From Patiria pectinifera (taxonomy: Eukaryota; Echinodermata; Asteroidea; Valvatida; Asterinidae), in the NCBI GenBank assembly GCA_029964075.1, contig CM057140.1, positions 12,728,643 to 12,792,642 on the forward strand: DNA of 64,000 nt. Reading direction: 5' to 3'. The first letter of the stretch is position 1, and each line of letters starts with the position of its first letter. The notes beneath the pieces were generated by a model. That model made no database searches, had not been told where the DNA came from, and saw only the letters and a program-made list of their open reading frames with translations. Made by a program: the position numbers and the translations under genes. Shown one piece after another: positions 1 to 58,500 of the stretch.

Positions 1-3000
1 CAGTACGAGAACGCCTCCATGGCCTCCATCACAACGTCCGGCTCCACCGGTTCCTTTGAATCGTTCACCGACCAGTCCTCAAAATCTTCTACTCTGTAAG
101 ACAATTTTACCTTCTTGCTTTTAACATGATAAATGACACTATTGCTACATGAGTGCTTTTTGCTTTAACATTTTTTTAAAATCTGATGACTTTTTATAGC
201 CAATAATTTTCTTTCAGTGTGTCCACTAGATGTGGTAAAATGCTAACAAATACCCCAAATATAACAGTTCCTGATTGATCAGGGGTTTTTTTGGCAGAGT
301 GAAATCTTTCTATTTGTTTTAATATTAGTATTTTTAATATTATTTCAAATTCCTCGTAGAATGTGAATGATTAGGAAGGGTTTAGGATTAACTACATGTA
401 CTTTACCTCATGCATATTCATGATGAGCCGAATCTGTACTTCTCCATTTAACATCACGTGCCAGCCATGTTGCTGTTTGACATGTTTATCAAGTTCACGC
501 AAGGATTCACGATGAAATGTTGGTGCATATGCATGAGGTATAGTAAAACAAATTTAAAAGAACATGGTTTATTTCGGGTGAACAGCCATAAGTAGCTCCC
601 CTCGGTATTGGAAGTTGAAAAACTAGTTCCCTCAAATGCCTCACATCAACTATCCGGCTGAAACCATGTTACATTTGTATATTATGTCCCTCTTTCCCTG
701 CCCGACCATGCAGCATCCCGGAAGATGACACAGACCTGGGAGGCTACGCAACCATCAAACCGGTCTTCAAACCCGCCGGCATCCGACCCGAGATCCTGAA
801 AAGGCGAGAAGCCGAGTACACCTTTCCCCACAACTTCCGTGTCTTTGTTGGGACGTGGAACGTGAACGGCCAGACGGCGTCGGAGGATCTGGGTCCCTGG
901 CTCAACGTGGACGAGAAACAGGCAGACATCTATGCCATCGGGTTCCAGGAGCTAGACCTGAGCAAGGAGGCATTCTTGTTCAACGATTCGGTTAGGGAGG
1001 ATGAGTGGAACAAGGCTATAGAGAAGACGTTGAGCCGGGTCGGTGCCTACATCCAGGTATGACTGTAGTTGCCCTTCAGGCAGGGCTGCGTGGAATCTAG
1101 TTGCCAAAATTTCATTTTCAGTTGCCCAATAAAAAACTTTTTATGTTGCCCGAAACTGATGGCCAAATCCTAATAATGTACATGGCTGCTTTAGCTGAAG
1201 TGGCTCAGGGCTTGCAGAATTGGCTGTCCGACGTCCCGGGACAACCAAAATATTTTACACTTTGCTGCTGCGCTATCGCCATTTTGCAAGCGTGCGTGGC
1301 CGGCTGGTAGTGGCCGGCTGGCAGTGGCCGACCGTGGCTGCGTACGTGTGCACAGTACCCGCGCTCTGCGCCGTGCTGGTACATGGTGTATATTATTGGA
1401 AAACTCACGTACGCACATGCGTGCCCACGCTGCCGCGCCTACACACATTATGTACGCGAAACGTTACTGAATGATGTAGCCGGACCGTATGTACAGATTG
1501 AGATTGGCCGCTAATCTGTTTTGGCTGGCGCCCTTTATTGGAACAGCAAGATCATAACCATGGGTACGCGGTTGACTCGATGTGCTCTCTTGTTTGTGTA
1601 CGGAGATAACCTCCAAACTGTTGAACACAACCTCCGAACTGTTCTTCATTTCTGCCTCGATTTCAGGTCAAGCTGATTCGGTTGGTTGGAATGATGCTAC
1701 TGGTCTTCGCCAAGGAGAGGCACGCCCCTTTCATCCAAAACGTCATCGCCGACACCGTGGGCACGGGCATCATGGGTAAAATGGTGAGCAGAATTTTCGA
1801 GAAATCAACAGGGCTTTGATTTGGGTTGCTTTTGTGCCCCAACACGTCTGTCTTGCTAGTAGGGTGGTTCCCAGACCAGGAGCTTAAGTGCTCAAAACGA
1901 TGCAAAAGAAGATCAGGCCAACTTTACTCACACTTTAGCCAGCACTTTTCTCCAAAACTTTCATTGGGCCAAGAAAAGGTCCTCAGTATTTCACCAAGTT
2001 TGAAGATTCAATTCAATTTTGAAAGGAGACTTTTTTTCAATCTCTGGCAGTGGCTTGCACAAGAGAGGGAAGTCAAGTGGTTTCAAAATGAGGCTGAAGA
2101 CTAGACTTGTACATGTCCATCCATGGTCCAACTTTTTGACAAGACTGACTTCTCCGTTCACTGCCATTAGTCTGGTGCCTGACTATTGAGAAATGTGTAG
2201 AATAAGTGACCTAGTACGCGACATTCTAATTTTTTCTGTTGGTACAGTCAGCTGACAGTTGAGTGTTGCAGTACTGAAGAGTTGTTGGACTGGTTGTTTC
2301 AGGTGCCGGTCTATTTTCTTGTATTGCATGCTTTCAGTACCTTAAGTTTTTGGGACTCTCGTATACAGTATTGAGAGTCCCAAATTTTCAGACTAGGTGG
2401 TTCCCAGTTCATCTTAAAGCGGTTGATTTTGGCCATTGATTCATTGCATTTAGGGTAACAAAGGAGGTGTGGCGGTGAGGTTCGATTTCCACAACACGTC
2501 CTTCTGCTTCGTCAACTCTCACCTGGCAGCTCACATGGAGGAATTCGAGCGAAGGAACCAGGTAGGGAGATTTTTTCCTCCAAAGTCCTACTTAAGTTTT
2601 TATTAGTCGAAAAGTTTGATCCTTCTGTCCCCTAACTTTTCGCCTGGGTCTGCCTGAAAGCCTCAGACTCGCACCACGTCCATACAACAAAGTTCACATA
2701 TCTTTGCTTTTTATTCTTGCAGGATTACAGTGACATCTGTAGCAGAATGAAGTTCGAGCTTGCTTCGCATCGGCAGCCGTTATCCATCAGAAAAGGCCAC
2801 GAGTGAGTTTCGATTTGTTTTATTAGCTATCAGAAGAACTGCTATTATAAGTTGTAGTTAAGTCAATCACAAGTCATTTTCATGTCACAAGTCCGTCACT
2901 GGGGGTTGTTGAGACGGAGGGCTATCTCTGAAGATAGCTCCGGAGCTAGCTAGCTCCACCCAAAATAGTTGTCATTTTAGACGCTACTTAAATCTGCCTC

Positions 3001-14006: not shown

Positions 14007-17000
14007 ATGATGCTGAAAAAGAAGAGGAACATCCGCCAGCGGGAAGAAAGCAGCGACGGGGAGGGGGAAAAGACCGACCAAATTCCGTTTCTGGAGGAAA
14101 CGTACCACTCACAAGTAAAAAGTGTTCAGAAAACGTTGCAGCTGAAACTCGAGAAAAAGACCAAGAAGAAAGATGTGAAGAGCGGCGGGACCGAGGGTGG
14201 AGGCGCCGGGGGAGCGGGAGCGGGCACGTCGGGAAGTCTGCTTAGCTTTGATCATGAAGATGATGAAGATGGTAGGATGATGCGGGATTGGGAATAACAT
14301 TTAAACAACTGGAAACATTTCTATTTTCAATCTGTGCTAAAAATCTTGGCAAAAAAGGCTAATTTATTTTTCGAATATATTTTGTCATGTTCGTAGGGCC
14401 TACATTTCATTGCTTTTGATGTGTTTTTTTTTTTTAATTGAAAGAATCATTTTAAGCGTCAGACCTCTTATTTCTACGTACTCAAATGCAATTTTGTGTG
14501 TGACAATGCGCGCGCGATGCAATTAGCGCTAACTGCGCAGATTATGGAAGGTCGAGGAAACACAAGTTTTGATTTCGTCGGAATCTGCAAACCAAAGTAG
14601 GAAAAATGGATTCAAACCAGGGATTTTTGAGACACTGAAATGTGTATGTTTAATTAAGGCAGAGTAAAGTGTGATTATTTTGCATGCAAAAAGGAGTGCA
14701 GAAATATGATTGAAATGCTCAAAACTCACATTTTTTCATCTTTGTGTAAATTCATGCTTTTTTCAATAGATATATATGGCAGACGGCAATCATGATTTCA
14801 AAAATACTGATATTTGAATTTAAATTGTAGAGTATGAATATGCAAAAAAAATAAAAAAATTGTAATGACAATTTATTATTCAGAAAAAAGGGTCACTAAA
14901 TGAACAACACCCCTGTGCCAAATTTGTTGACTTTTGTGCGTATGTCAGTCACACTGTCTAATATGAATACAAATGTTACTTAGTTTCATGGGTTGTGATG
15001 TCATGGATATGTTAAATATATCTGAATGTAACATTGAACTATTAAAGCATATTTGTTTTTCTCTCTTTTCTGCTAAACAGGGGGAGAAGTCTTTCAGATC
15101 AAGAAGTCCAACCACAGCAAGAAAGTCGCCAGGAAGCTGAGGGAGCAGGCGAGGAAAGAGAAACAGCGAGAGGAGATGGCTAAGCTAGTCAAAGGGTCTG
15201 CCGATAATAAAGCCAAACAGCCAGCAGAAATCAAGGGTAAAATTAGCTTTGTGCTTGGGCCAATTTAACCCTAAATGCCCTGAATCCTTCAAAATCATCC
15301 TTGCCAGGGGTGTGAAATCTCAGCTTTAAAGCTGATTTCAGCTTTTTTTGTTTTGGATTTCAGCTTTTTTTCAGCTTTTTCCCTCACTTGCTGTGTACAA
15401 AAGTATAGGAGATTTCCAAAGTTCACTTTTTTACACTTTTTTCAGCTATTTTCAGCTATTTTTATAAGTGGTCACTCACACCCCTGCTTGCCAAAGTGCA
15501 AAAATTTGGAGGATTGAGGTTACATGGCAAAAGTGCGTTACTGATTTCGTAGGATGCACTTTGTCAAGGTCTTGGGCCAGACCTTGTGTTGTTTATGGCG
15601 TCAGGATACAACATTCTTCCTTGAAATATTTTTGCTGCAGTTTTTTTGTTTATCGGTGATTTCAATTTCACCCTCCCCCGTCTCTCAATACCAGGCAATG
15701 GTACAGCAGCAGCAGTTAACAAGCCGGCGGGAACTAGATTGTTGCCTAAGGACCGAGCGGAGCTGATTCTGAATGGCATGGATGCGGAGGCGGCGGCCAT
15801 GGAGGAGGAAGACAGGCGAGAGATGGAGGAACGAGTGCCCGTCATTGCGCCAGGTAAGGAGTCTCCCTAATGTCCCTGAAAAGTTTTAAGATGAAAATTT
15901 CCCTGGTAGATAAGACTGTACAAATAATGAAAGGTATGCGGAAACACCATGTGCGAATAATTTCTCAACTAAGAGAATGGTTCTGAAAAGAACCAGAGGT
16001 ATAAACTCGACGTTTCGGTCAGTATGCTCTGACCGTCTTCAGGAGAGTGCCTAAACTCTAAGAAAGTGACAAAAGAAAACTCTAAGACTGTACAAAATAT
16101 ACCAAATATTCGATCAGCCATTGCATATCCAAATAGTTTTTTAATAAAATATTTGAAAATTGTGAGCGGTCTCAAGTAGATGATTAGGAAACATCCACTA
16201 TGTTATTATGATTGTATAAGTTGCATGGTTTTAACCCTTACTGCCCGGAATCCTTCAAAATCCTTTGTGCCAAAGTGGAGGAATTTGGCAGAGGTTACAT
16301 GGCAAAAGTGTATACTGATTTCGTAGGATGCACTTTGTCAAGGTCTTGGGCCGGACCTTGTTGTGTTGTTGCTCAGCCATGCATGAATATAGGCCTGGAT
16401 TTGTGCTTGAAATCCTCCGTACTGCTCCAGGATGTCACTGGCCAAGCCTCAACGTAATGACAGTCACTGCCGCAGGATTTTGCAGGATTCAGGCAGTGGT
16501 CACCCCTCCACGGACCATATTCAAGAAATAATGGAGGAACTTGCAGGATTGAGGTTATATGCTTTTTGTCCATGAGGTCAAATGGAGGATTTTGCAGGAT
16601 TGAGGCTACATCCTAGCAAAAAGCCCTAGGGAGTTAGGGTTAATGATTGTCAAATGCCAATGTGATTTGGCTTGTGATTGAGCTGATATTGACAGGATGA
16701 CAACTTCAAGTCTTTCCTGGACACTTGACTTATTGCCAACCTCAAACAGTAAGTCACCTTTTTAAAAAAAAAAATTGCGTTTCTCCAGGAATGATCCCAG
16801 ATGCAGCCACCATCTTCGCCGCCCGAAAGCGCCGTCAGATCGCGCGGGAGACCGGTGGCCGGGCCGACTACATCCCCCTAGACGACACCAAGCGCTACGG
16901 CAACACGGGAAAAAAGGCCGGGCGCGAGGAGTCGCGCCTGGTGCGCGACGACGACAACGACGCCAGCGACAGCGAAGAGGAAGGCCGGATGAGCTTCACG

Positions 17001-20000
17001 GTGAAACACGGGACGAACAGACAGCGGATGCAGGAAGCCATCAATGAAAGTATGCAGTGGTTTGCTTATTCAAATTATGGACAAATTGTCTCCTTTTTTG
17101 CTCCTGAATTAGCTCAGCTGTTGACAGATGCCTGACAGATGGAAGGGAAACCAGTAGAGGGCGCCATTTAACCGCTTTCAAGATCCAGTGTGTTCATGTG
17201 TACAGTGAACATGCACTAGTTTTGGGGAGTATGACACGGTGTACGCAACACAACACTTTCATCTAAATATGCACAAGTTGTATTGCTACCATGGACGGAT
17301 GAACCAGAGTGTTGACCACTCATCTCCTTTGAAATTTCATGAAAATTTGTGAAAATGATTTGCTAAATTGTAACAGAAGAGAGTTTGAAGTTACGGAGAG
17401 ATTTTATTTACAAGAAACTGAGACTGCAACAGCATATTGGTAAGTTGAACTTCTTTGTCACTTTTGTTTCATTTTCAAATTTAAATTTTTTTTTGTGATC
17501 TTTGCTAAAATATTTAGCTTTTGGAGGATTGTCTTAGAAATAATAATGAGATAAAGGTAAGTGTACACAGGAAACAAAAATCTCTATACCAGGCAGAAGT
17601 ACGCTTCAAGAATCAAACTGTTATGTAAGAGGTTAGATTTGATGTACTCAAGCAAATCACTGCAATTTTAATAATATTCATAGTCCAGTTCTTTTTGATT
17701 AAAGTGGGCCTAAATACTCCCCTTTTTCCTCATTTTTACAGGTTACTACAAAGTCATCTTCTAGCTCGCTCATTCTTAGAAGCAGGATGGGCCGGGAAAA
17801 AAATGTCATCTTGTGAGAGGAGCAATCTCCATTGATCAGCTCAAGGAGCTCACCAGCCAATCCTGTCCCATCAAGCTGTTCAATTGATTCCAATGAAAAT
17901 CTGGAACAATCCCTTGATTGTTGACCCAATTTCCCTGTTACTGTAATGTCTTGTATCCCGTCTCTCCCTTGTAGATGTGGATGACGGCAGCGACCACGAC
18001 AAAGACCACAGCGAGGAACTGCAGCGCTGGGAACAGGAGCAAATCAAGAAAGGAACCAGCGTACCGCAAGTCGGTATTTGATCCGTCATGTCTTGAATTT
18101 CTGCTCTGAATTCTCTTCTTCTTTTTTATTCCCCTGGCTTTTAAGCCAAGAAAGGGGGATCTTGCGATAGTGTATTCCTTCTGTGTTTCTGTGTGTCCAT
18201 GTGTTCCGTTTTGGTTAGGTTACATGTAACTGTTTAGTGCTGTCATTTGAAAAGTCAGACTTCACTCACGACCAAACTTGGTGAGGATAATCTTTGGGTA
18301 GAGGGACTTCAGATGACTTGAGACATTTGAGGTCAAAGGTCATGTAGGGGTCAAATGAGATCATTGTTGATTTTGGTTGAGTTAACTGTTTAGTGCTGTC
18401 ATATGAAAAGTCGGACTTCACTCTCGACCAAACTTGGTGACAAGAATCTTTGGGTAGGGCGACTTCAGATGACTTGAGACATTTGAGGTCAAAGGTCATA
18501 TAGGGTCAAATGAGGTCATTGTTGTTTTTGGTTGGGTTACATGTTTAGTGCTGTCACGTGAAAAGTCAGACTTCACTCTCAACCAAACTTGGTGACAAGA
18601 ATCTTTGGGTAGGGGGACTTAATATGGCTTCATTTGTGGCCAAAGGTCATCGAGGGGTCACATGAGGTCATTGGTGATTTTGGTTAGGTACACTGAAAAG
18701 TGTGCTTACTAACTGACTGTATAAATACTGCCAGCATGCCAGAGGGTATTGCGGAAGTTTAACTTGCAGTATTTTTTATGCTTGCTTTTAAGTAAATTGA
18801 AAGTTTCACATTGAATGGCTCCATAATAATTCAGATTCTTTCATTTCCCATCCTAGGCCCAAGAATCTACCACCTCATCTGCAGCTGCGGCTGCAGCCGT
18901 TGCTGCCTCCTACTACTACCAACAGCAAGAGTTCCCTTACGGCCAGCCCACTAGCCAGTATGCCACGCCCGTGGGAGGGGCCTATGGGATAGGGGCGGAG
19001 CAGCAGCCTGTCATCCACGCCCTGAACACGACGCCCATGTGTGAGATGCCAGTGGTCACCATTGAGCAAGTCAAGAAGAAGCTGAAGGACTGGTAACAAG
19101 TCTCTTTTTCTTTTTTTTTTTACTTGCGTCAAGTATTGATCAGATAGGTACAATACCTGGCCTTTGATTTTAACCAGTTCGCGCCGGATCAAAGGTTTTG
19201 CGGCACTCAGAACAGATGACGGATAAACACGTCGGGAGTGAGGCCGGAAATATCTGTCGGCGACCCGCTCACAGCGAGCGAGGCCGGCAATATGAGTGTG
19301 CTGCCCAAGGGTGATGGCTTCAACCCGCCTGGCTTGAGGTCGAGTGAAAAGTTATCCCGTGCCTCGTTCCGTTCTTGTCAAAATAATCCCAGCGTGAACT
19401 GGTTAAGGGACCACAGTTAGAATCCCTCCCAGTACATTTCGATTTGATTGCAGTTCCCCTCGTTAATCATGAAATATTTCCACAGAATGTTGGTTTTTCT
19501 TTCCAGTTTTCCAAAAGTCTTGTTGGTTTTGTTATAGTGGAAACAGTGAGATTTAATTTTGGCGGTCTGTGACTAATTGCCAATAACAAGTTAATAAATT
19601 AACTTTTATCCAACTTGGTGATTTCCGTTGATTTTGCACCAGGTTTGAATCGGTGAAGGACGTCCACCGAGCCCACGAGCGTGAGTTGGATCAGCAGCAG
19701 GAGCGGCTGGAATCCTCGGCCGACACCTCGGTCAGCTTGAAGGACAGTCAGGGCGGCGTCAGCGGACAGTACCAGTTCTTTCAGGAGATGAAGGGCTACG
19801 TCAAGGACCTAGTAGAGTGCTACGGAGAAAAGGTACAAACATAGTCACCAACTGCCTTACCGTAAACAATGAACTCCTCAAATGTGTAACAGAACTGAGG
19901 GCTCCGTGCACAAGTACCCCCTCAACGGAAAGAAAGGGAGAGTTGGGGAGACCACCTGGAGAGACATTTGGCGCAGCATTGCTGACGACACCTGACGCTC

Positions 20001-27884: not shown

Positions 27885-29783
27885 GGCTCTCCGAAAAAAT
27901 ATTTAAAAAACATTGATCAAGTCTAGCCCCAAGATGGAGTGGGTTATAAACTTGCACGTTAGAAATCATGAGCATTTTTGAGACTCACAGAATCCATTCT
28001 CCCTTTTGTTTACAATTGTTTGTAATTTGTTTTTCCCAGCGGTACGGTCAGTTCTGCAAAATTTATCATATTTATTGCGCCGAGTTACTGTCGTGTCACC
28101 TATTTAATTGTCCATGCATAAATATAACTGACCTATCGCCGTTTGTTGAGTTGGCCACGCCCCTTAAACAACCCTATGGAATTTTTGTACGCTAAGTTTT
28201 GTTTGTCTCAGATGTTGCACGTCCCGCGTCCATTTGTATATCATGTAATTGAACCATATTTCACAAGCTGCGATACGTCTATTTAGTTCACTGGGAGAGT
28301 GTTTGTAGCAATCATAATGCATTGTTAGTTTTCTTTTCAGCGACAGTGATTTTGTGTAATTTTAGTTATACATTGTTGAGTACTTGTAAAAATGAACACC
28401 ATTCGGTTGTGACATTTTAGGAACACTTTTATTTGTGCGTTTTATTTCAACTGTTTAAAACGTATAACAACTGGTACAAGGTATCTGAAAGCATTTGGAA
28501 TATTAAAACAACTGTAAATATTACACATTACATTTCTGTTCCTTGGTTTGGTTTTTCGGTTTAGTCCTTTTTGTGTTTCCGTTTTCTCATTTTCTGAAAG
28601 TGCTACAAATGACATGTATTGACAGAATAACTGAACTTGAAATGGCCACTCAAAGTGGAAAGGGATTGTTAAAGGAATTGTTTCTGGTTTTCTTATGCAT
28701 TCGCAATCGTACAGAATTCACCATCTTGGTCTTATCCCTTAATTGCAGGTATGTACAAAGTAAAGATGAACGATGGTCACATCAGGGTCGCCAGACTAAT
28801 ATGGCAATATGATTTTGACAAGCCGTGTCCGAATCGGCTGTTTTATGGCTACGACTTCAGTTTTGGCATTGATATGCTACAGTACATATCCATAGCCATG
28901 TTGGACATGGCCACAGAATGGAGACTCTACAATTCATTCAGATGTGTGATAGCTATATCACTGTCTAAACAACTCAATAGGAATGCCTTCATCATTTTTC
29001 CCAGTAATAATGCTTACCACTTAGCTTTTGCTTGTAGGAATAACTCAATATAATGAAGGGTAATATCATACAATAAAAACCAAATTGATATTTAATCTAT
29101 ACAGGATAATAAGTTCAAGTTGCTTAAAAATGTTAATTGGAAACATAAACAGATAAATCATTTGACTTGCCTCGTGTATTTAAAGTGACCAAAATTAACA
29201 ATTTTTTCAAATACATGGAAACACACACACTGTGACTTGTGAATGTAATCCCTAACCTTAAAATTGCATAATTAATTCACAAAAGTGCTCTCGAATAACT
29301 TTTGAGATTCGACTGTACGACATGTTTACAGGAGATATGTGTTGTCGCTTGGAAAGAACTTGGGGGCAGTTGTGCATCGGTTCTTTCATCCAAAATGTGT
29401 CGGTACCCCGTCAACCATCAGAAATCTTCTCCAGATTTTCTGTAGCAATCAGACCAAATATTTTCAGAGACAGCACATTTTTTTTTTTTTTAATAAAGAT
29501 CTGGTAGTGATTAGATTACTGGTGCAAAAATGTTGTTGCCAAATTAATTCTACAGAGATTTAGGTTTAAATTGTGTAAATTTCAAACTTGTTTGGAGTGC
29601 TTCAACAAATGTAAGAGGTGTAAGAGGAAACACGGACTGTTTTCAAAAATTTAAGAAAACATTTCCTTACAAAAAAAAGCTTTTCAGAGTAGCCACTCTT
29701 TCAGTGCAGTCTTACATTTATTTCACCACTCCACGGTACAAGAGGACATGACATTGGCAATCCAAAAATGTGACTGAAGAGGT
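27885..29783. other. Intergenic stretch between convergent PAXBP1 and HDAC8
   Basis: AT-rich with no recognised gene, SINE or foldback. It must contain the PAXBP1 3' UTR and possibly part of the HDAC8 3' end. Open frames such as 28751-29053 have no family resemblance or splice context. Confidence 0.5.
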
Positions 29784-29789
29784 TTTATT
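29784..29789 (-). other. Candidate HDAC8 poly(A) signal touching the stop codon
   Basis: On the minus strand AATAAA begins with the last base of the TGA stop. If used, the 3' UTR would be only about 20-30 bases. Confidence 0.4.
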
Positions 29790-32700
29790 CAATTCCAGAA
29801 GATTTTATGCATACATGTACACATATGTATAGTCTTACCTGTTATAGAGGCGATGGTCTTTTCAATGTACTCGTCCGTGTTGAGGTTTGGTCGATGAGTC
29901 GGCGAGACGTCAAGCTGATAGTCTGGTCCGTACTCGAGAAAGTGCTGCAAAACAAATGAGACCCAAACCAGACCATTGTCCTTTGTAACGTCATGCCTCA
30001 TACAAACTATGTTTAAGAATTTGTCGCCGATTTCAACTTTCGTATCTCTTTTCATACTTGTATTTGCTCACCTCATGTTCCGGTATCTCGGCCGGTAGCC
30101 TGCACCCGAGCACTGTTGCAGTCAGGTTAGCCCAGCACCGGGCCGTGTTGGCTAACCGGTACCCGCCGCCCCCCAGCAACAATGTTGGCAACTGCCAGGC
30201 TGACACCACATGGTGCAGGCAGCGGGCCAGGCCGGCCGGGGTCATGTTGAAGGATTGCATGGGGTCGTCAGCTAGCGTGTCGGCACCGCACTGGACCACT
30301 ATAGCGCTGGGGTTGTAACACTGCTTGAGTTGGTCGACAACTCTGGCAGAGTAAAAAGACAAAGAGAAAGTCATAATCTACCTATTGGATCCAGTGTTGT
30401 TGGCCAGGTTCTTGTAATGAGCCACAAGTCCATCACAAGTACATCACAAGTAAATCACAGTGTACTTATGATGGATCACAAGTACATCACAGACTGGTCA
30501 CATGTACATCACAGGTCCAGTCACATGTACATCACAAGTCCAGTCACAAGTAAATCACAGTGTACTTATGATGGATCACAAGTACATCACAGATTGGTCA
30601 CATGTACATCACAGGTCCAGTCACATGTACATCACAAGTCCAGTCACAAGTACATCACAAGTAAATCACAGTGTACTTATGATGGATCACAAGTACATCA
30701 CAGACTGGTCACATGTACATCACAAGTCCAGTCACAAGTAAATCACAATGTACTTAATGATGGATCATAAGTGCATCACAGACTGGATCACAAGTAAATC
30801 ACAGACTGGTCACATGTACATCACAGACTGATCACATGTACATCACAAGTCCAGTCACAAGTAAATCACAATGTACTTAATGATGGATCATAAGTGCATC
30901 ACAGACTGGATCACAAGTAAATCACAAGTCAGGTCGTAAGTAATAGGCAAAGAACAATAACAAAGGAATGCTTTTGTCACATTTCATTGGAATAGCTTGT
31001 GACTTGTGATTGACTTGTGATGGTCTTGTGAGGTCTTGTGATGGTCTTGTGAAGATTTGTGATGGTATTGTGATGGTCCTGCTTGGACTTGTGATTTTCT
31101 TGACTACATCACTGGTGGTTAATATTCGGCCCCATTCTCTTCTAGACTACCTGCAGAAGACACTGAAGTACTGGTTGTCCTGGATCCCATCCTTGAGGGG
31201 GACATTCACCGAGTAGTATTTGCCTTTACCGATGCCCACGTCATCCACCGACCCAGTGCCTGGTGAACAAATATAAACCAAAAAGGCATAAACTCTAACA
31301 ATAATTTTACTTTTCACTTCTTTTCGCCCACGTGTGGACATGTGCATAGTTCCAATGTGAGAAAGTCTGCCATTCGCAAACATTTCCATCAGGAGTTTTG
31401 TCCATCCCAAACTAGCACCGCATCCAAATCACTTGGCTATGACCAGGAATAAGACGCGCAGCTATGGAAGCCGCTGGCTGGCTAGCGGCTACAGCCACTT
31501 CCCATAGACTCATGTGTTATCGCCGGGCATAGCCGAGTGATTTGGACCCGGCCATAGTGTGTCTCAACCCAAATTTTGAACCTTTATATTTAGTAGTTGA
31601 CAATGCAGCTCACCTGGGAAGAAGCCCGGACAGTACTTGTGGAAGGAGCATGTCAGGACTTTGGGTGTGTAGCAAAAGGCGTCCTCAACACCTACAAGAC
31701 AAGGGTTCAAGGTTGAACATCCCCTATTTACACAGAATCACATCTGAAGTACACTCATACCCAGGACCAATGGGCCGTGGTACATGCTAAAATTTCAAGC
31801 ATTTTCATTGGACTATCCGTTACAGCTCTATGCTCTGAACCCAAAAGTTTGAGAGTTGCTTTACCATCTCCGTGGTGTAGATCCAGGTCCAAATACAGAA
31901 CACGGTCAAACTTCTCCCTGAGTTTTAGAATCCCCAGAACGACATCGTTGACGTAGCAGAAACCAGACGCCTCATCTCTGAAACAATCAAAAACAAAAAC
32001 GGTCAAATTGTATTGAACAACCTATTCATTTTTATGGTTTTTCTGTTGATGTCAGCAACAAGCAAGTGGAAATCTGCATTTTGGAAACATTGGCAATAAA
32101 TCTAAAACTCCTAGACCCTCCAAAATCTACCAAGAGGTTCGGAAGGATGCGGCAGTATTGAGGAAGGTAGAGCCAATACCGATGCCTTTATGATGGACTT
32201 ATGAAGGCTCCTAGCAAAATGATTATACGGAGTTTGGAGTTAGTTTTGTGAGTTATTTGTCGTACGAAGGCAGCCTGTGTTAAACTCAGCATTCAAACTG
32301 TTGCGTTCTATTCGTTGTCGGAGAAATGAAATGAGTACTTTTGTAAACTCTCTATTCTCATTTGAGGAATCCAGTAATTCTGAGGATCTTGTTACCTCTT
32401 GGCGTGATGCCAGCCTCCGCACCAATTAATGGCAACTCTACTCTCTCCATTAACCAAGGCCTGGGCAGCTCGCAGGGTGGCGCCCGCTGCCAAGCAGACG
32501 AAATCAAAGACGTGGGGGATGGTTGGGCAATCATAACCTAAATAAAAAGAAGAAATTGACAAAATAAACTACATGGAAGAATGACTTGGTAAAGTACTCA
32601 ATATTAAAAAAACAAAGAAAAGTGTACAACGGCAGGATTTGAACTTCTGATCTCCAGAAAAAAAAGAATGGTTTTCTAAAAAAAAATTTACTTTCAAGGG

Positions 32701-34081
32701 ACGAGTATGATGATAGCTTAGGAATTGAACATTTTTTCTCTCACCCAGACCAAACTGCTGTTTTAGTTCCTCATTCTTCTCGCTGTCGTCCTCTTGATTC
32801 AGGCGCTCCAAGCAGTCCACAAAGTCTTGGGAGTGGAAGACGGTTAGGTCTTCCTTGGTGGTGCGATGCGGAGGTAGAACCGTCATGTTCTGGAGGAGGC
32901 CATAAGCCTCTAGAAGGCTGTGCACCATTCCCGCCTGTTAGATGGATAAAGGGTAACATGAGATTTGAAGAAATGTTTGAAATTTCATTTATGAAGTACT
33001 TTAGAAATGGTTTCTTTTTTAGAGATTAGAGATAACTTCTGTATTTATGTTGGCCACCATCTCATAGCGAGCTTGGTTAAGATACCTGACCTTGTGACTA
33101 TTGTGGGTTCAATCCACCTACATGTATGGCAAATCCAAGATGGTAAGTTTTGCAGACAAAAACTTCAAGTAAAAAAGTATGATAATCATTTCCACTATGA
33201 CTCACTCTCTTAGGGACTTTTAGCAGCGTGTCGCACAGTCTAATCAGCTGCTCGCTGTGAACATACACCACTCCAGATGAAGATGACACCTGATTGATCT
33301 TATCTCCCGTCGCACTATCGCAACGAGTGGCACCAAAACTGCGCCGTTTCAATCTCGGCAGAGCCTGGCGATTGAACGGTTTCAGCGGGAGAGGCACGCC
33401 ACGCTTCCTCGGTCTGGAGCTTCCGGCTACCAACCCGGGGCAAACTGAGCGTCCTGGAGAAAGCCTCGGCCGCACATACTCGCTGAGCTGCTCCAGACGT
33501 TTGGAGACGTTCTCCGAGGTAGTTGAAGATGCCGATGAGCTGCCTTCAAAGTCGTATGTGGCACCAGAGTCGTCTGTCCTTTTCAGGAGCGGGAGGGGCT
33601 TGCCGATCATCGGCGAACGGTCCGGGGATGTCAGGAATCCCGGAGGTATGTTCTCCGAGAGCTCCTCAAGACGTTGGAGAAGCTTCTCCGAGGAGCTGGA
33701 GGTGGTTGAGGAGCTGCAGTCGAAGTCATACAGGGTGCTGAAGGTCTCTGTCCGTTTCATGGAGTAGTACATGTGTAGGGACTTTTCAACACTTAGACTT
33801 GCCCGGGCCGGAGACAGAGGGGCATCTCGTGGAGGAGGGACGTTTTCGGCGAGGAGCTCCAAGCGCTGCAGTAACCGATCCGACGATGATGGCGATGAGG
33901 TTGACGGTCCGCAGTCAGCATCCGCCAAGTTCTTTGCGGGATCGGTTGACGTGATCGGAGCCGGGGATTTCACGTTGGCGAGCTGATCCTCCTGGGGTTG
34001 GTGCGGGTGACTGGAGGCAGGGGATGCCGGGGAGGAATTTGGTGACTTCTCCCCTGTCACCAAATGGGTTGTAGTTGCCAT
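29789..34081 (-). CDS. HDAC8: Histone deacetylase 8 homologue with long repeat-bearing N-terminus (8 exons)
   Basis: Class I zinc-dependent lysine deacetylase; in vertebrates it acts on SMC3 and other substrates. Exons in transcript order: 34081-33206, 32934-32745, 32537-32396, 31977-31865, 31691-31614, 31259-31151, 30342-30072, 29944-29789. They join in one 644-residue frame; human HDAC8 has 377. An in-frame TGA seven codons upstream of the ATG supports the start. Catalytic features: GGWHHAK (His399/His400), DLDLHHGDG (Zn ligands Asp435 and His437), GADT (Asp524), and GGGGY with catalytic Tyr564. The deacetylase domain begins near residue 281 ([16 protein letters not shown]). Residues 1-280, all in exon 1, are Ser/Pro-rich, with three repeats centred on [14 protein letters not shown] (70-83), [14 protein letters not shown] (134-147) and [14 protein letters not shown] (192-205), then basic patches (RPRKRG, RLKRRS). 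The Ser39 region reads KRAGMVHSL, so that serine is absent. The last exon may read through to TGA, or splice at GTAAGA (29838) to an unseen short exon. Confidence 0.93.
30418..30935 (+). repeat. 11-bp minisatellite with higher-order structure in an HDAC8 intron
   Basis: Units of the CACAAGTACAT / CACAAGTCCAG type repeat within larger units of roughly 100-130 bp that include AGTGTACTTATGATGGAT and AGACTGGTCACATGTACAT. It lies in the intron between HDAC8 exons 6 and 7. The opposite orientation of the motif follows at 30995-31105. Confidence 0.85.
30995..31105 (+). repeat. Inverted continuation of the 11-bp minisatellite
   Basis: CTTGTGATGGT / CTTGTGAGGT units, the reverse complement of the motif at 30418-30935, about 60 bases away in the same intron. 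Confidence 0.75.
31423..31546. mobile_element. Foldback element, TCCAAATCACTTGGCTATG family
   Basis: The arms TCCAAATCACTTGGCTATG and CATAGCCGAGTGATTTGGA are inverted copies, as are inner CAGCTATGGAAG.. and CTTCCCATAG. Same family as 45440-45665. It lies in the intron between HDAC8 exons 5 and 6. Confidence 0.75.
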
Positions 34082-35199
34082 GATGGTTGACGATGATTCT
34101 CAAAACATTGCTATTGGATGAAGCACATGATCTTATAAAAAGACAAAAATCAGGAAAAAATCAAATAAAGATTGTCTTTGTTACTTTGGATAAATACAAA
34201 AAAAACAATCAAGGATATTTGATATTTGAGAAAATAGATATAGGGCATACCGGTACACCCCCTCCCCCAAGCCCGAGCCCACATCTTATTTACAATTTAC
34301 AAAACAATGTCAAACCATGGAGGTAGAATTTGAACGCCTTTCAAACTCGAAAAGTGTTTAAAACTTTAACTTCACAAATAAAAGTGGTACATACAGTAAA
34401 TAATAACAGTTGACAGTTACAAGTTATGGAGCCTCAAAGGCATTTGAGCTGATTGGCCCAACTTCGACAACGAAAATCAAGTTAAGCAAAAAATCACATT
34501 TATTCGGTAAGATATTAAAGCATGCGAGAACAATAAATGATGGATCAATTTAGCCGAGTTGAACTGTCAAACTTGCAAATTTTGCAAACAACGATTACTC
34601 TATTCATAGTCAATGTATAAACGTATACAAAAAAATACAACTTCTGAATAAAAAGCAACAATTAGGCTCAATGCAATACATGTTTTTATTCACAGAATTT
34701 TCCCCTCACCCGAAAGTTCAACCAGTGCATTGACATTGTCAAAAAAATGTTTTTGTCTTGCTGTAAATTCAGAATTGCCCCCTCTCTTGATGTATAATAA
34801 TTATTACACCCAAAACTCATTCCCATAGTTTGTTTATTTCGTTTTTGCCACTTGCTTATTCATCCAGTTTGGCGGGTCGCTCACCCTAGCTCGAGGTTGA
34901 ATAAACTAAGTAAATAATACTGCATGGTGGCGCACGTTTTGCACGCTGCGTGCAAAACTGCGAATTGCGGGAAAACGTGCATAAACGCATGCTCGTGTTT
35001 TTTGTCATAAACGGTGAGTATTTTGCAGGGAAAATTTGGTGTAAATTGTGAGTGATTCATTTATTAAATATCATAAAAATGGCTTTACCATGTTTTTATT
35101 GTATAAAGAGTTGTGAATTAATTTCGGTAGGGCTCCTTTTCGTAAGATTCAAGGCATGATTTTGTAATTTTGAATTACAAAACAAAAGTCATGCGCGTG

Positions 35200-35302
35200 C
35201 ATGACATTAGCTTGAGTAACTCCAGCTGACATGCTCCATATTTATTCACATGTAACAATATGGAGCATGTCAGCTGGAGTTACTCAAACTAGCATGACAT
35301 GG
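35200..35302. repeat. Long near-perfect hairpin upstream of CTP synthase
   Basis: The left arm 35200-35240 (core CTTGAGTAACTCCAGCTGAC) pairs with the right arm about 35259-35302 (core GTCAGCTGGAGTTACTCAAA) almost without mismatch over about 31 bp and with small bulges beyond, around a loop of about 18 bases. Confidence 0.85.
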
Positions 35303-35761: not shown

Positions 35762-44281
<8,520 letters not shown>

Positions 44282-55545: not shown

Positions 55546-58500
55546 CTACTTGTTACTCGCTGTTGGATCAACGGTGAACTCTTGGATGCGTCCGGTACAC
55601 AAGCTGGTGCTTTCCGTATTCTTCCTAACCATTGGGGGATTCGTTACGGCGTTCGCGTCCGCATAGTATTCTCTGACGTCAGCCGTACCAGCGAAACTCA
55701 GGTTACTGGCTCCCTCGGACGTGCGGGTACCAACGACGTTACTGCAGCACGCCCCTTTGTAACCAATCGCCTGGCGCAGCGCTTTGCGGTGCTGCTTGCT
55801 TTGAAACCCGTAAATGAACGGGTTCATGCACGAATTGCAGAAAGCGATCAGTACGCTGGCGTGGTAATACCAGCCTGAGAAGTCCAGGTTCCAGCCGCAC
55901 ATGTAGGCGAAGAACATGAACTGGTTTGGCGCCCAGCAAACGGCAAAAGTCACAACGACTGTAAGCAGCATCTTGACGACTTTCTTGCGCGCGCGAAGGA
56001 GATCCCGAGACAGCTGGTTCTCTCTGCCGTCCGACGTTGATTGGCGCATAGTCATAGCGCTCTTATGCAAATTACTCATGATCCGCCAATAGGAGAAGCC
56101 CATCAGGCTCAGCGGGAAGATGTAGATGACGCAGAAGTTGGCCACGCCCACAAACTTCTGCCAGGCCGTGCTCTGCCACTGGATGATGCATCGGCCGCTG
56201 TCGCTGTAAAATATGTAGAAGAAATAACTGTTCAGGAGCACGGCTATTGCCCATATGCAAATGATCATGCCGATCGCTTTCTTGGGGGTGAAGAGTGCCT
56301 CGTAGCGAAAGGGATGCACGATGCTGGAGTACCTCTCTAAGGTGACGCAGGTCAGGGTGAGCACTGAGGCCACGAAGCTGGTCCAGAGGGGGTACTTGGA
56401 CAGCAGAAGTCGGCACATTACATCTCCCGCCGCACCCTCTGGTACCGGAATTTCAAAACCTATATAATTCAGAGAGAAAAAAAACAGCCCTTGATCACAA
56501 ATTGAGGATGTCAAGCACACAATTCGAATGTTCAATTCCTGCTTCATCATCGTAACAAAAATTCCCCAGAACTAAGCCAAATCAGCAATTTAGATATCTG
56601 TGTGTTTTACATGACATGCATGCAATCCATCTTTGGTATAGCTATGTAAGTATTCATGTAGAATTATTGTTTTAAAATGCGAGCAATTTCATCTGAGGAA
56701 AAACCCACAACAGAGATTGTTCAACCAAACCAGACCAACCGCTCTACTTCAAACCTTTACTTTTGCGGGTTTTATGACGTTTCTCAAACTACGATATCTA
56801 GCTTCACCACCATTTCTTGCAGAGATTTGGTTCTCTTGTTAAGCGTTTCCTCGCTGAACTGAAGGTGTCTATTATGGCGCAATAACGTTTATTAATCTTT
56901 TCTGTTTTTGCTATTTGGATTGTGAACCTGTGTACTGTACTTCCTCGCCCAAGGCAGTAAACAATACATGTATTCATCGTCCTCCTCTCGCTTCTCAGTC
57001 TGCCTTGCATCATTTCAAGACCGAGGAAATGTTGGTCTTTATAAGCGATCGGGAATTACAATTTCATTCGCACTCCTTTGCCTCCAAGCAACGCCTTTGG
57101 CAAGTCATTTCTTACCAAAAGATACCTTTGGTGTAGTTCAGCAATTATTACCGCCAACAAATGATTGCAATTTCCTTAATTGAGTCGATTGTATCTTGTC
57201 TTTGGAATCGTAAATTAATGAATTTCATTATATAGTATAGATTTAGAAAGCATGCAGTTTTGCAGTGTGGTTTCATTTAATTTGGAAATTGATTGAGGTT
57301 GTGAAATTCCATGTTGGGTCTTTCTCGTGTGAATTACTTTATTACAGGGTGTATTTAAAACAAACGAATTAACCTCTTTTTATCAGATGCGAGTGTATAT
57401 CCATCACACTGTACATTTTATAATTACTGTTTATTTAATCTTAATTTGCCCTGCACAACTCTTCAGTAAGCCCAAAGATAAGACGTGGCCCATCATCGTG
57501 ATCTACGGAACTAACCAAGTCAAAACCAGCATCATCTTTCCATGGAAACCAAGATGATGCAGATAACGCACCCAAGTAATTGCAACTACTTATGGTCTTC
57601 TTATAAAAGGCCTGTATGAGTAGAGAGAAGTTCATCCACCGACTCAATCAAGCCATACCTCAAAGTCTACCCTGAACTGCGGTTTCCATAGTTTCTGTTA
57701 CCTGGTACGGAAAGAATTCGCTGCCGTAGCCATCATTATCATCTTCTTATATATAAGAACAAATAACGGCCGCTATGGTCTATGACCTGTCGTCTGCGCG
57801 GTCTTTTTACGCAAGCCAAAGAAATCTTGAGATGCTTTTTGTCTGTTGACATCAGAGTAAGTTGATACACGCATAAGGTACATCAAATCTAACTGAAATT
57901 GATCTTGACACTAATGGGGTATATACGTACATGTATGTACTTAATAAGGTTCAAATTAAAGGGATACAGTCCCTCTTTCGATATTTCTTCTTAGTTCTCT
58001 CTTCGCTGTAAGTTAATACTGATTGTGACACATGAAAACTTTCTGTTCTATTACAGTAATTATCGAAGTGATGCCTGCCGGGCGAGCGGGCCATACACTT
58101 GGTTTATTGCGTTAAAAGGTGCCATTAGTAAATATGATGACGTATATTTGTGTCCTTCCGGAGTAGCTCCCCCCCCCCCTTTTTTTTTTTTGAGCTCTCG
58201 GGAATTCACCGAGTATACAGCGCTTTGGGCCCTGAAAAAACCGAAAAAGGGCAAAACTTGATTTTGAACAACACATTCTGTATTTTTCTCGAGGCTATTC
58301 AAACAATCCGTCTGGTACTTGCTACATTTCATTATTGCTTTAGGACCAAAAATCCTCACTAAAAATCAACAACTCTGTTTTTTCCCCCTGACCCATCAAA
58401 TTCGTTGACCACATACCCCCTGTCCATACAAGAGTTGAAACCTCGTCTAACTTGCGAAATCTAGTTTAAAGAATGCCGCCGGCGAGCTATTACGTTAGAT

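Follow-up and report, generated by a model that had tools for sequence, protein, structure and literature searches.

Human HDAC8, at 377 residues, consists of a single domain without a long regulatory tail, and HDAC8 enzymes typically have no long C-terminal tail. HDAC8 deacetylates cohesin's SMC3, and to our knowledge what directs the human enzyme to its substrates is poorly defined. The class IIa HDACs (HDAC4/5/7/9) carry an N-terminal regulatory tail with helical, phosphorylatable docking motifs, and their N-terminal helix mediates oligomerization. In PMC6174833, PKA phosphorylation at Ser39 is described as lowering human HDAC8 activity, and the C102/C153 redox pair as common to class I HDACs. 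As encoded by the gene analyzed here, this old enzyme has an unusual tail, at least in this animal.

The gene lies in a window of 64,000 nt, the whole stretch of DNA that was analyzed and to which all coordinates refer. Assembled from splice sites and reading frame, the gene model occupies the minus strand at 29411-34081 and comprises nine coding exons, all joined in frame, with a 637-residue product. Coding exon 1 (33206..34081, residues 1-292) is open from end to end over its 292 codons, terminates in the donor AGA/GTGAGT and is spliced in frame to exon 2 (32745..32934), in agreement with the claim that the frame continues into the deacetylase domain; the junction reads KVPKR/AGMVHS, as against KIPKR/ASMVHS in the human protein (slashes mark exon boundaries). 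Exons 2, 5 (31614..31691), 6 (31151..31259) and 8 (29839..29944) were placed by splice sites and frame, and exons 3 (32396..32537, active-site HH), 4 (31865..31977, metal ligands D and H) and 7 (30072..30342, metal ligand D and catalytic Y) by the gene model and mapping to human positions. The 29 bases of exon 9 with the stop (29411..29439) were deduced from the acceptor and the frame and make up the least certain exon; read-through from exon 8 likewise soon hits a stop.

The sequence identifies the gene as an HDAC8 that retains the catalytic residues. A PDB search with the protein gave 73 distinct chains at E ≤ 1e-40, and among the best 60 of the 73, which were inspected, the best HDAC8 chain scored 486.7 bits, compared with 376.2 for HDAC2, 367.5 for HDAC1 and 326.1 for HDAC3, upholding the identity given in the original prediction. 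Alignment with human HDAC8 yielded 194 identical residues among 357 aligned, and 22 of the 25 mapped positions were identical, the exceptions being I19 (Val), Y20 (His) and Ser39 (Gly294). Kept, in human numbering, are the active-site His pair H142 and H143, the metal ligands D178, H180 and D267, and the catalytic Tyr Y306; the redox pair is retained as C359 and C410. Gly294 (codon 32929-32931) occupies the place of the human PKA site. The model C-terminus, residue 637, adjoins the end of human HDAC8 with no long C-terminal tail, the last exon being a deduced one. A genome-wide family search gave at least 23 matching stretches, 20 of the 23 as loci L002-L021. Among L001-L021 (E ≤ 1e-6), identities of 94-100% were confined to the window's own place (L001, L008, L009 and L011), and the other deacetylases showed 34-73% identity to the present protein; no second HDAC8 was seen among these loci, which represent L001 and 20 of the 23 stretches.

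Five of eight submitted neighboring stretches matched Pfam at E ≤ 0.001. The divergent neighbor is a CTP synthase gene (35762-44278, plus strand), with its first exon over the cut-off and its glutaminase end (43865-44278) just under. Pfam further identified a rhodopsin-family GPCR (55549-56571, minus strand), a phosphatase-type exon (Exo_endo_phos2; 619-1059, plus strand) and an NTR2-family exon (16701-17132, plus strand). The interval that separates the divergent starts of HDAC8 and CTP synthase contains two inverted repeats, one at 35208-35291 with 35-base arms that are 97% complementary and separated by 14 bases, the other a 26-base inverted pair (35317-35342/35497-35522); they are perhaps remnants of small mobile elements. 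HDAC8 intron 6 and the part of the CTP synthase gene 3' of its first coding exon both contain arrays built on a related 11-base unit (CACAAGTACAT / TCACAAGTCAA, in reverse orientation CTTGTGATGGT); the arrays, at 30423-30930, 31003-31095 and 36268-36634, flank the divergent start region.

What sets the protein apart is its N-terminus. V17 of human HDAC8 aligns to V272, and 255 tail residues precede the alignment with the human enzyme; an N-terminal region absent from the vertebrate enzyme had been proposed at 280 residues, and the extension exists at the shorter length. With its final 21 codons (residues 272-292, 33206..33268), exon 1 already enters the enzyme domain. Direct reading of the sequence places an in-frame TGA at 34100..34102, the seventh codon 5' of the ATG, exactly where a stop had been described, and the start codon is flanked by A at -3 and G at +4. 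The stop-to-stop frame of exon 1 spans 333 codons; among the window's 846 frames of 40 codons or more, it ranks second in length. Residues 1-265 and the remaining HDAC8 gene have third-codon-position GC contents of 0.64 and 0.66, respectively. The codon-usage score of the tail is 0.024, whereas random synonymous codons give -0.031 ± 0.028; given this small margin, and an antisense frame that reaches 0.012, codon usage by itself is weak evidence for the tail. A 157-residue plus-strand ORF opposite the repeats (33294-33767) was set aside, as nothing supports its status as a gene.

Replacement of the tail by an alternative first exon or a downstream start, which would place it outside the main protein, is in our estimate very unlikely. 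Met 104, 108 and 158 exist as possible starts, but no Met occurs from 158 to the end of the exon, and since residues 1, 104, 108 and 158 are the only Met in exon 1, any ATG start within it would retain at least repeat 3 and the basic stretch described below. The same exon also encodes the domain start, which is present in human HDAC8 too, and the good ATG context and the long open frame (~9e-5 by base composition, for this frame alone and uncorrected for the choice of frame) likewise argue against replacement.

The tail contains three diverged copies of one unit, far beyond chance. As defined by alignment and codons on the minus strand, repeat 1 covers residues 52-116 (33734..33928), repeat 2 residues 117-173 (33563..33733) and repeat 3 residues 174-250 (33332..33562). 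At 65 and 57 residues, the first two are close to the ~60 residues originally given per repeat, and the third, at 77, is longer. Each unit runs from a Ser/Thr run through an amphipathic helix (RLExLxE, then proline) to an SP-x-R stretch, and 16 columns are invariant across the three repeats (D, three S, R-L-E-x-L-x-E, P, S-P-x-R, L and K-R). A basic stretch together with YDFD (residues 118-121, 33719..33730) or YDFE (residues 176-179, 33545..33556) precedes repeats 2 and 3, respectively (the place of YDFD and YDFE had been noticed from the sequence), and repeat 1 has ADAD where the YDF would stand.

The best self-alignment of the tail scored 192, compared with a mean of 41.6 and a maximum of 85 for full shuffles (n = 600) and 42.7 and 86 for shuffles within 20-residue blocks (n = 600). 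None of the 1200 shuffles of both kinds reached 192, which bears out the claim of three repeats. When matches of S, T and P were scored at or below zero and these residues were held fixed, the self-alignment still scored 89 versus 19.4 ± 2.4 (0 of 150 shuffles), and chance similarity of low-complexity sequence was rejected. Scores of the helical blocks were matched by none of 1000 shuffles for repeats 1/2 and 2/3, and by one for repeats 1/3. Slippage of Ser codons was rejected, as TCN and AGY codons (34 and 11 in residues 1-265) occur side by side in the Ser runs of repeats 2 and 3; repeat 1 has a run of TCN codons alone, and the argument is weakest there. A candidate fourth repeat was rejected as weak (shuffle fraction 0.19 against linker 1, 0.029 against linker 2). 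An origin of the repeats as duplicates of the first HDAC8 helix was also dismissed, with shuffle fractions of 0.115, 0.086 and 0.656 against the protein's own helix and of 0.864, 0.678 and 0.513 against that of human HDAC8.

Constraint was assessed between the repeats inside this one gene, standing in for a comparison between species. Over the three repeat pairs, nucleotide differences numbered 100, 75 and 137 at codon positions 1, 2 and 3 (third-position excess p = 6e-5, a value that serves only as a guide for non-independent pairs), and identical residues were encoded by different codons in 17 of 33, 19 of 33 and 17 of 23 cases. The third-position excess and the codon changes at identical residues indicate old duplications in which the protein rather than the DNA was kept. 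For repeats 2 and 3, the only pair covered by dN/dS (dS is not computable for pairs with repeat 1), dN was 0.32 and dS 1.28 over 30 codons; the 19-codon helix block gave 0.42 and 0.65, a sign of mild constraint only. The copies thus bear protein-level constraint, and the repeats look old and constrained as protein to a mild to moderate degree.

The mild dN/dS in the helix block would suit a tail that is real but serves as a loosely constrained disordered spacer, with repeats that are leftovers of duplication and have no specific partner. Low predicted order outside the helices and the composition of residues 1-271 (S+T 25.1%, P 10.7%) point in the same direction. The helix columns, however, have been kept despite heavy divergence and show a third-position excess, and a hydrophobic spacing of 4-3-4, with a proline at the end, recurs in the helices of all three copies. 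We regard a mere spacer as unlikely.

Structure prediction of the three repeats, proposed as a check in the original prediction, supports a short helix and nothing else. The AlphaFold2 single-sequence model of exon 1 was poor (mean pLDDT 46.9, pTM 0.16) and, at low confidence, placed helices at residues 66-79 of repeat 1 (33845..33886), 130-143 of repeat 2 (33653..33694) and 190-202 of repeat 3 (33476..33514), all on the minus strand, with further helices at 276-287, the first helix of the domain, and at 94-113. A model from the three-repeat alignment had an overall pLDDT of 63.9 and a pTM of 0.27 and contained, as its only element, one helix in repeat 2 (residues 128-142, block pLDDT 84 and 80). 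A small strand pair (167-169/175-177, KRT...YDF) appeared only in the low-confidence single-sequence model, was absent from the three-repeat model and was discarded. The hydrophobic moments of repeats 1, 2 and 3 are 0.62, 0.65 and 0.54, equaled or exceeded by shuffles at fractions of 0.055, 0.012 and 0.028; the stretches had been called amphipathic, a description that fits repeats 2 and 3 (1.2 and 2.8% of shuffles) and is borderline for repeat 1 (5.5%). Foldseek found no PDB match to the repeat model, a result that is little informative for a lone helix.

With such moments, and a 4-3-4 spacing that suits a short coiled coil, the predicted helices might pair with each other or between molecules and so produce an oligomeric HDAC8, in the manner of the class IIa N-terminal helix. 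They are only about four turns long, however, end in proline and are embedded in sequence predicted at low confidence, and we consider pairing quite unlikely.

The same stretches could instead be docking motifs for PP2A-B56 (L-x-x-[IVL]-x-E), in which case the tail would tether up to three phosphatases. The sequences LELLAE, LEELSE and LEQLSE coincide with the invariant columns, and L..[IVL].E occurs four times in residues 1-268 compared with 0.22 times per shuffle, a count that none of 5000 shuffles reached; the fourth match, LQRLEE, is an overlapping one in repeat 2. As the sites are mutual copies, this number is inflated, and at least one such motif was found in 19.8% of shuffles. The three equivalent sites, each bearing an acid at position 2, fit the pattern [LMFI]xx[ILV]xEx given in PMC5586252. 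Against this, position 4 is Leu where Ile is preferred, there are no matches to [LFM]..I.E, and of positions 2, 7, 8 and 9, each copy has an acid at position 2 alone; positions 7, 8 and 9 are N/Y, V/I and P/R, with no phosphorylatable Ser/Thr. According to the same paper (PMC5586252), detection failed for LxxIxE motifs with only one charge among these four positions. A subset of B56 ligands has a basic patch within ~15 residues before the motif, as stated in PMC7108865, whereas at most two basic residues are found in the 15 residues before the present motifs. The three repeats thus follow the loose pattern of LxxIxE ligands, but depart from their charge and Ile preferences and are probably helical here. 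The Leu at the Ile position, the single acid and the few basic residues make the motif a lead only, and we hold it quite improbable that phosphatase docking is what the repeats are for.

Little supports the targeting role that had been suggested for the tail. A basic stretch, RPRKR...LKRRSF, occupies residues 223-249 (33335..33415), and its KRRS at residues 245-248 is PKA-like. Although basic stretches are present, the tail contained no match to classical nuclear localization patterns (K[KR]x[KR] or bipartite), and of six CRM1 export patterns tried, only class 4 gave matches, two in number, both doubtful and crossed by prolines.

Relatives of the tail were sought in several collections. Pfam returned nothing over the cut-off for the tail; the one sub-threshold match, to PLAC9 (PF15205; residues 133-151, E 0.0033), scored 18.3 bits against a cut-off of 27 and was taken as chance, and with single repeats it scored 13.4 bits for repeat 2 and was missing for the other two. 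NCBIfam gave no families for the tail, and two PDB searches found no relative of it (best E 0.44 and 0.13). When exon 1 was compared with its own genome (613,548,705 bases in 1020 contigs), the HDAC8 gene itself was the only match at E 0.001. Viral contigs yielded 7 pattern matches with exon 1 and 41 with the repeat alignment, and prokaryotic genome contigs gave 145, none of which was a relative, as expected for an animal gene. Gene content and the presence of introns in an HDAC8 point to an animal as the source. The accessible portions of the literature on echinoderm HDAC8 and on HDAC8 N-terminal extensions revealed no such tail, nor is one described in the available parts of PMC12153100, PMC9476566 and PMC8670706.

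The interpretation we favor, tentatively and with a little less than an even chance of being right, is that of an HDAC8 with a flexible Ser/Pro-rich tail that carries three old tandem docking units for one partner. In each unit, a Ser/Thr run open to phosphorylation would stand immediately ahead of an amphipathic helix roughly four turns long. Most likely, the three helices would all dock into a pocket of one and the same partner, their contributions adding up; phosphorylation of the Ser runs may tune this binding, and the tail could thereby bring the deacetylase to a substrate or a complex. A multivalent binding module had been suggested from the outset, and multivalent binding is the best reading because the kept columns center on the predicted helix, the sole element supported by the three-repeat prediction.

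A more elaborate version of this interpretation, which strikes us as far-fetched, makes the tail a scaffold with two functions. Its three helical/LxxLxE sites would gather PP2A-B56 or another partner beside the deacetylase, for example on cohesin, and phosphorylation control would have moved from Ser39 to the tail, that is to the Ser runs and to KRRS at 245-248.

If a natural HDAC8 has a docking tail in three copies, as the favored interpretation holds, the repeated helix could be used as bait for the partner. A parallel to such an arrangement is found in the class IIa enzymes HDAC4/5/7/9, in which the deacetylase domain likewise follows a long regulatory N-terminus whose docking motifs are helical and phosphorylatable. 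The present protein is not a class IIa HDAC: its domain matches HDAC8, and the likeness would be one in the way the tails work. With vertebrate HDAC8 (PDB 1t64 and others; 377 residues) it shares the catalytic domain, the PKR/A junction, the metal ligands, the catalytic Tyr and the C102/C153 pair, and it differs in its 255 additional N-terminal residues; a short N-terminus is not required for membership in the catalytic family. The human enzyme has the Ser39 PKA site where the present HDAC8 has Gly294, a difference that is regulatory and again not required for family membership. Together, the Gly at the Ser39 position and a phosphorylatable tail would make this protein a test case for rewired control of HDAC8.
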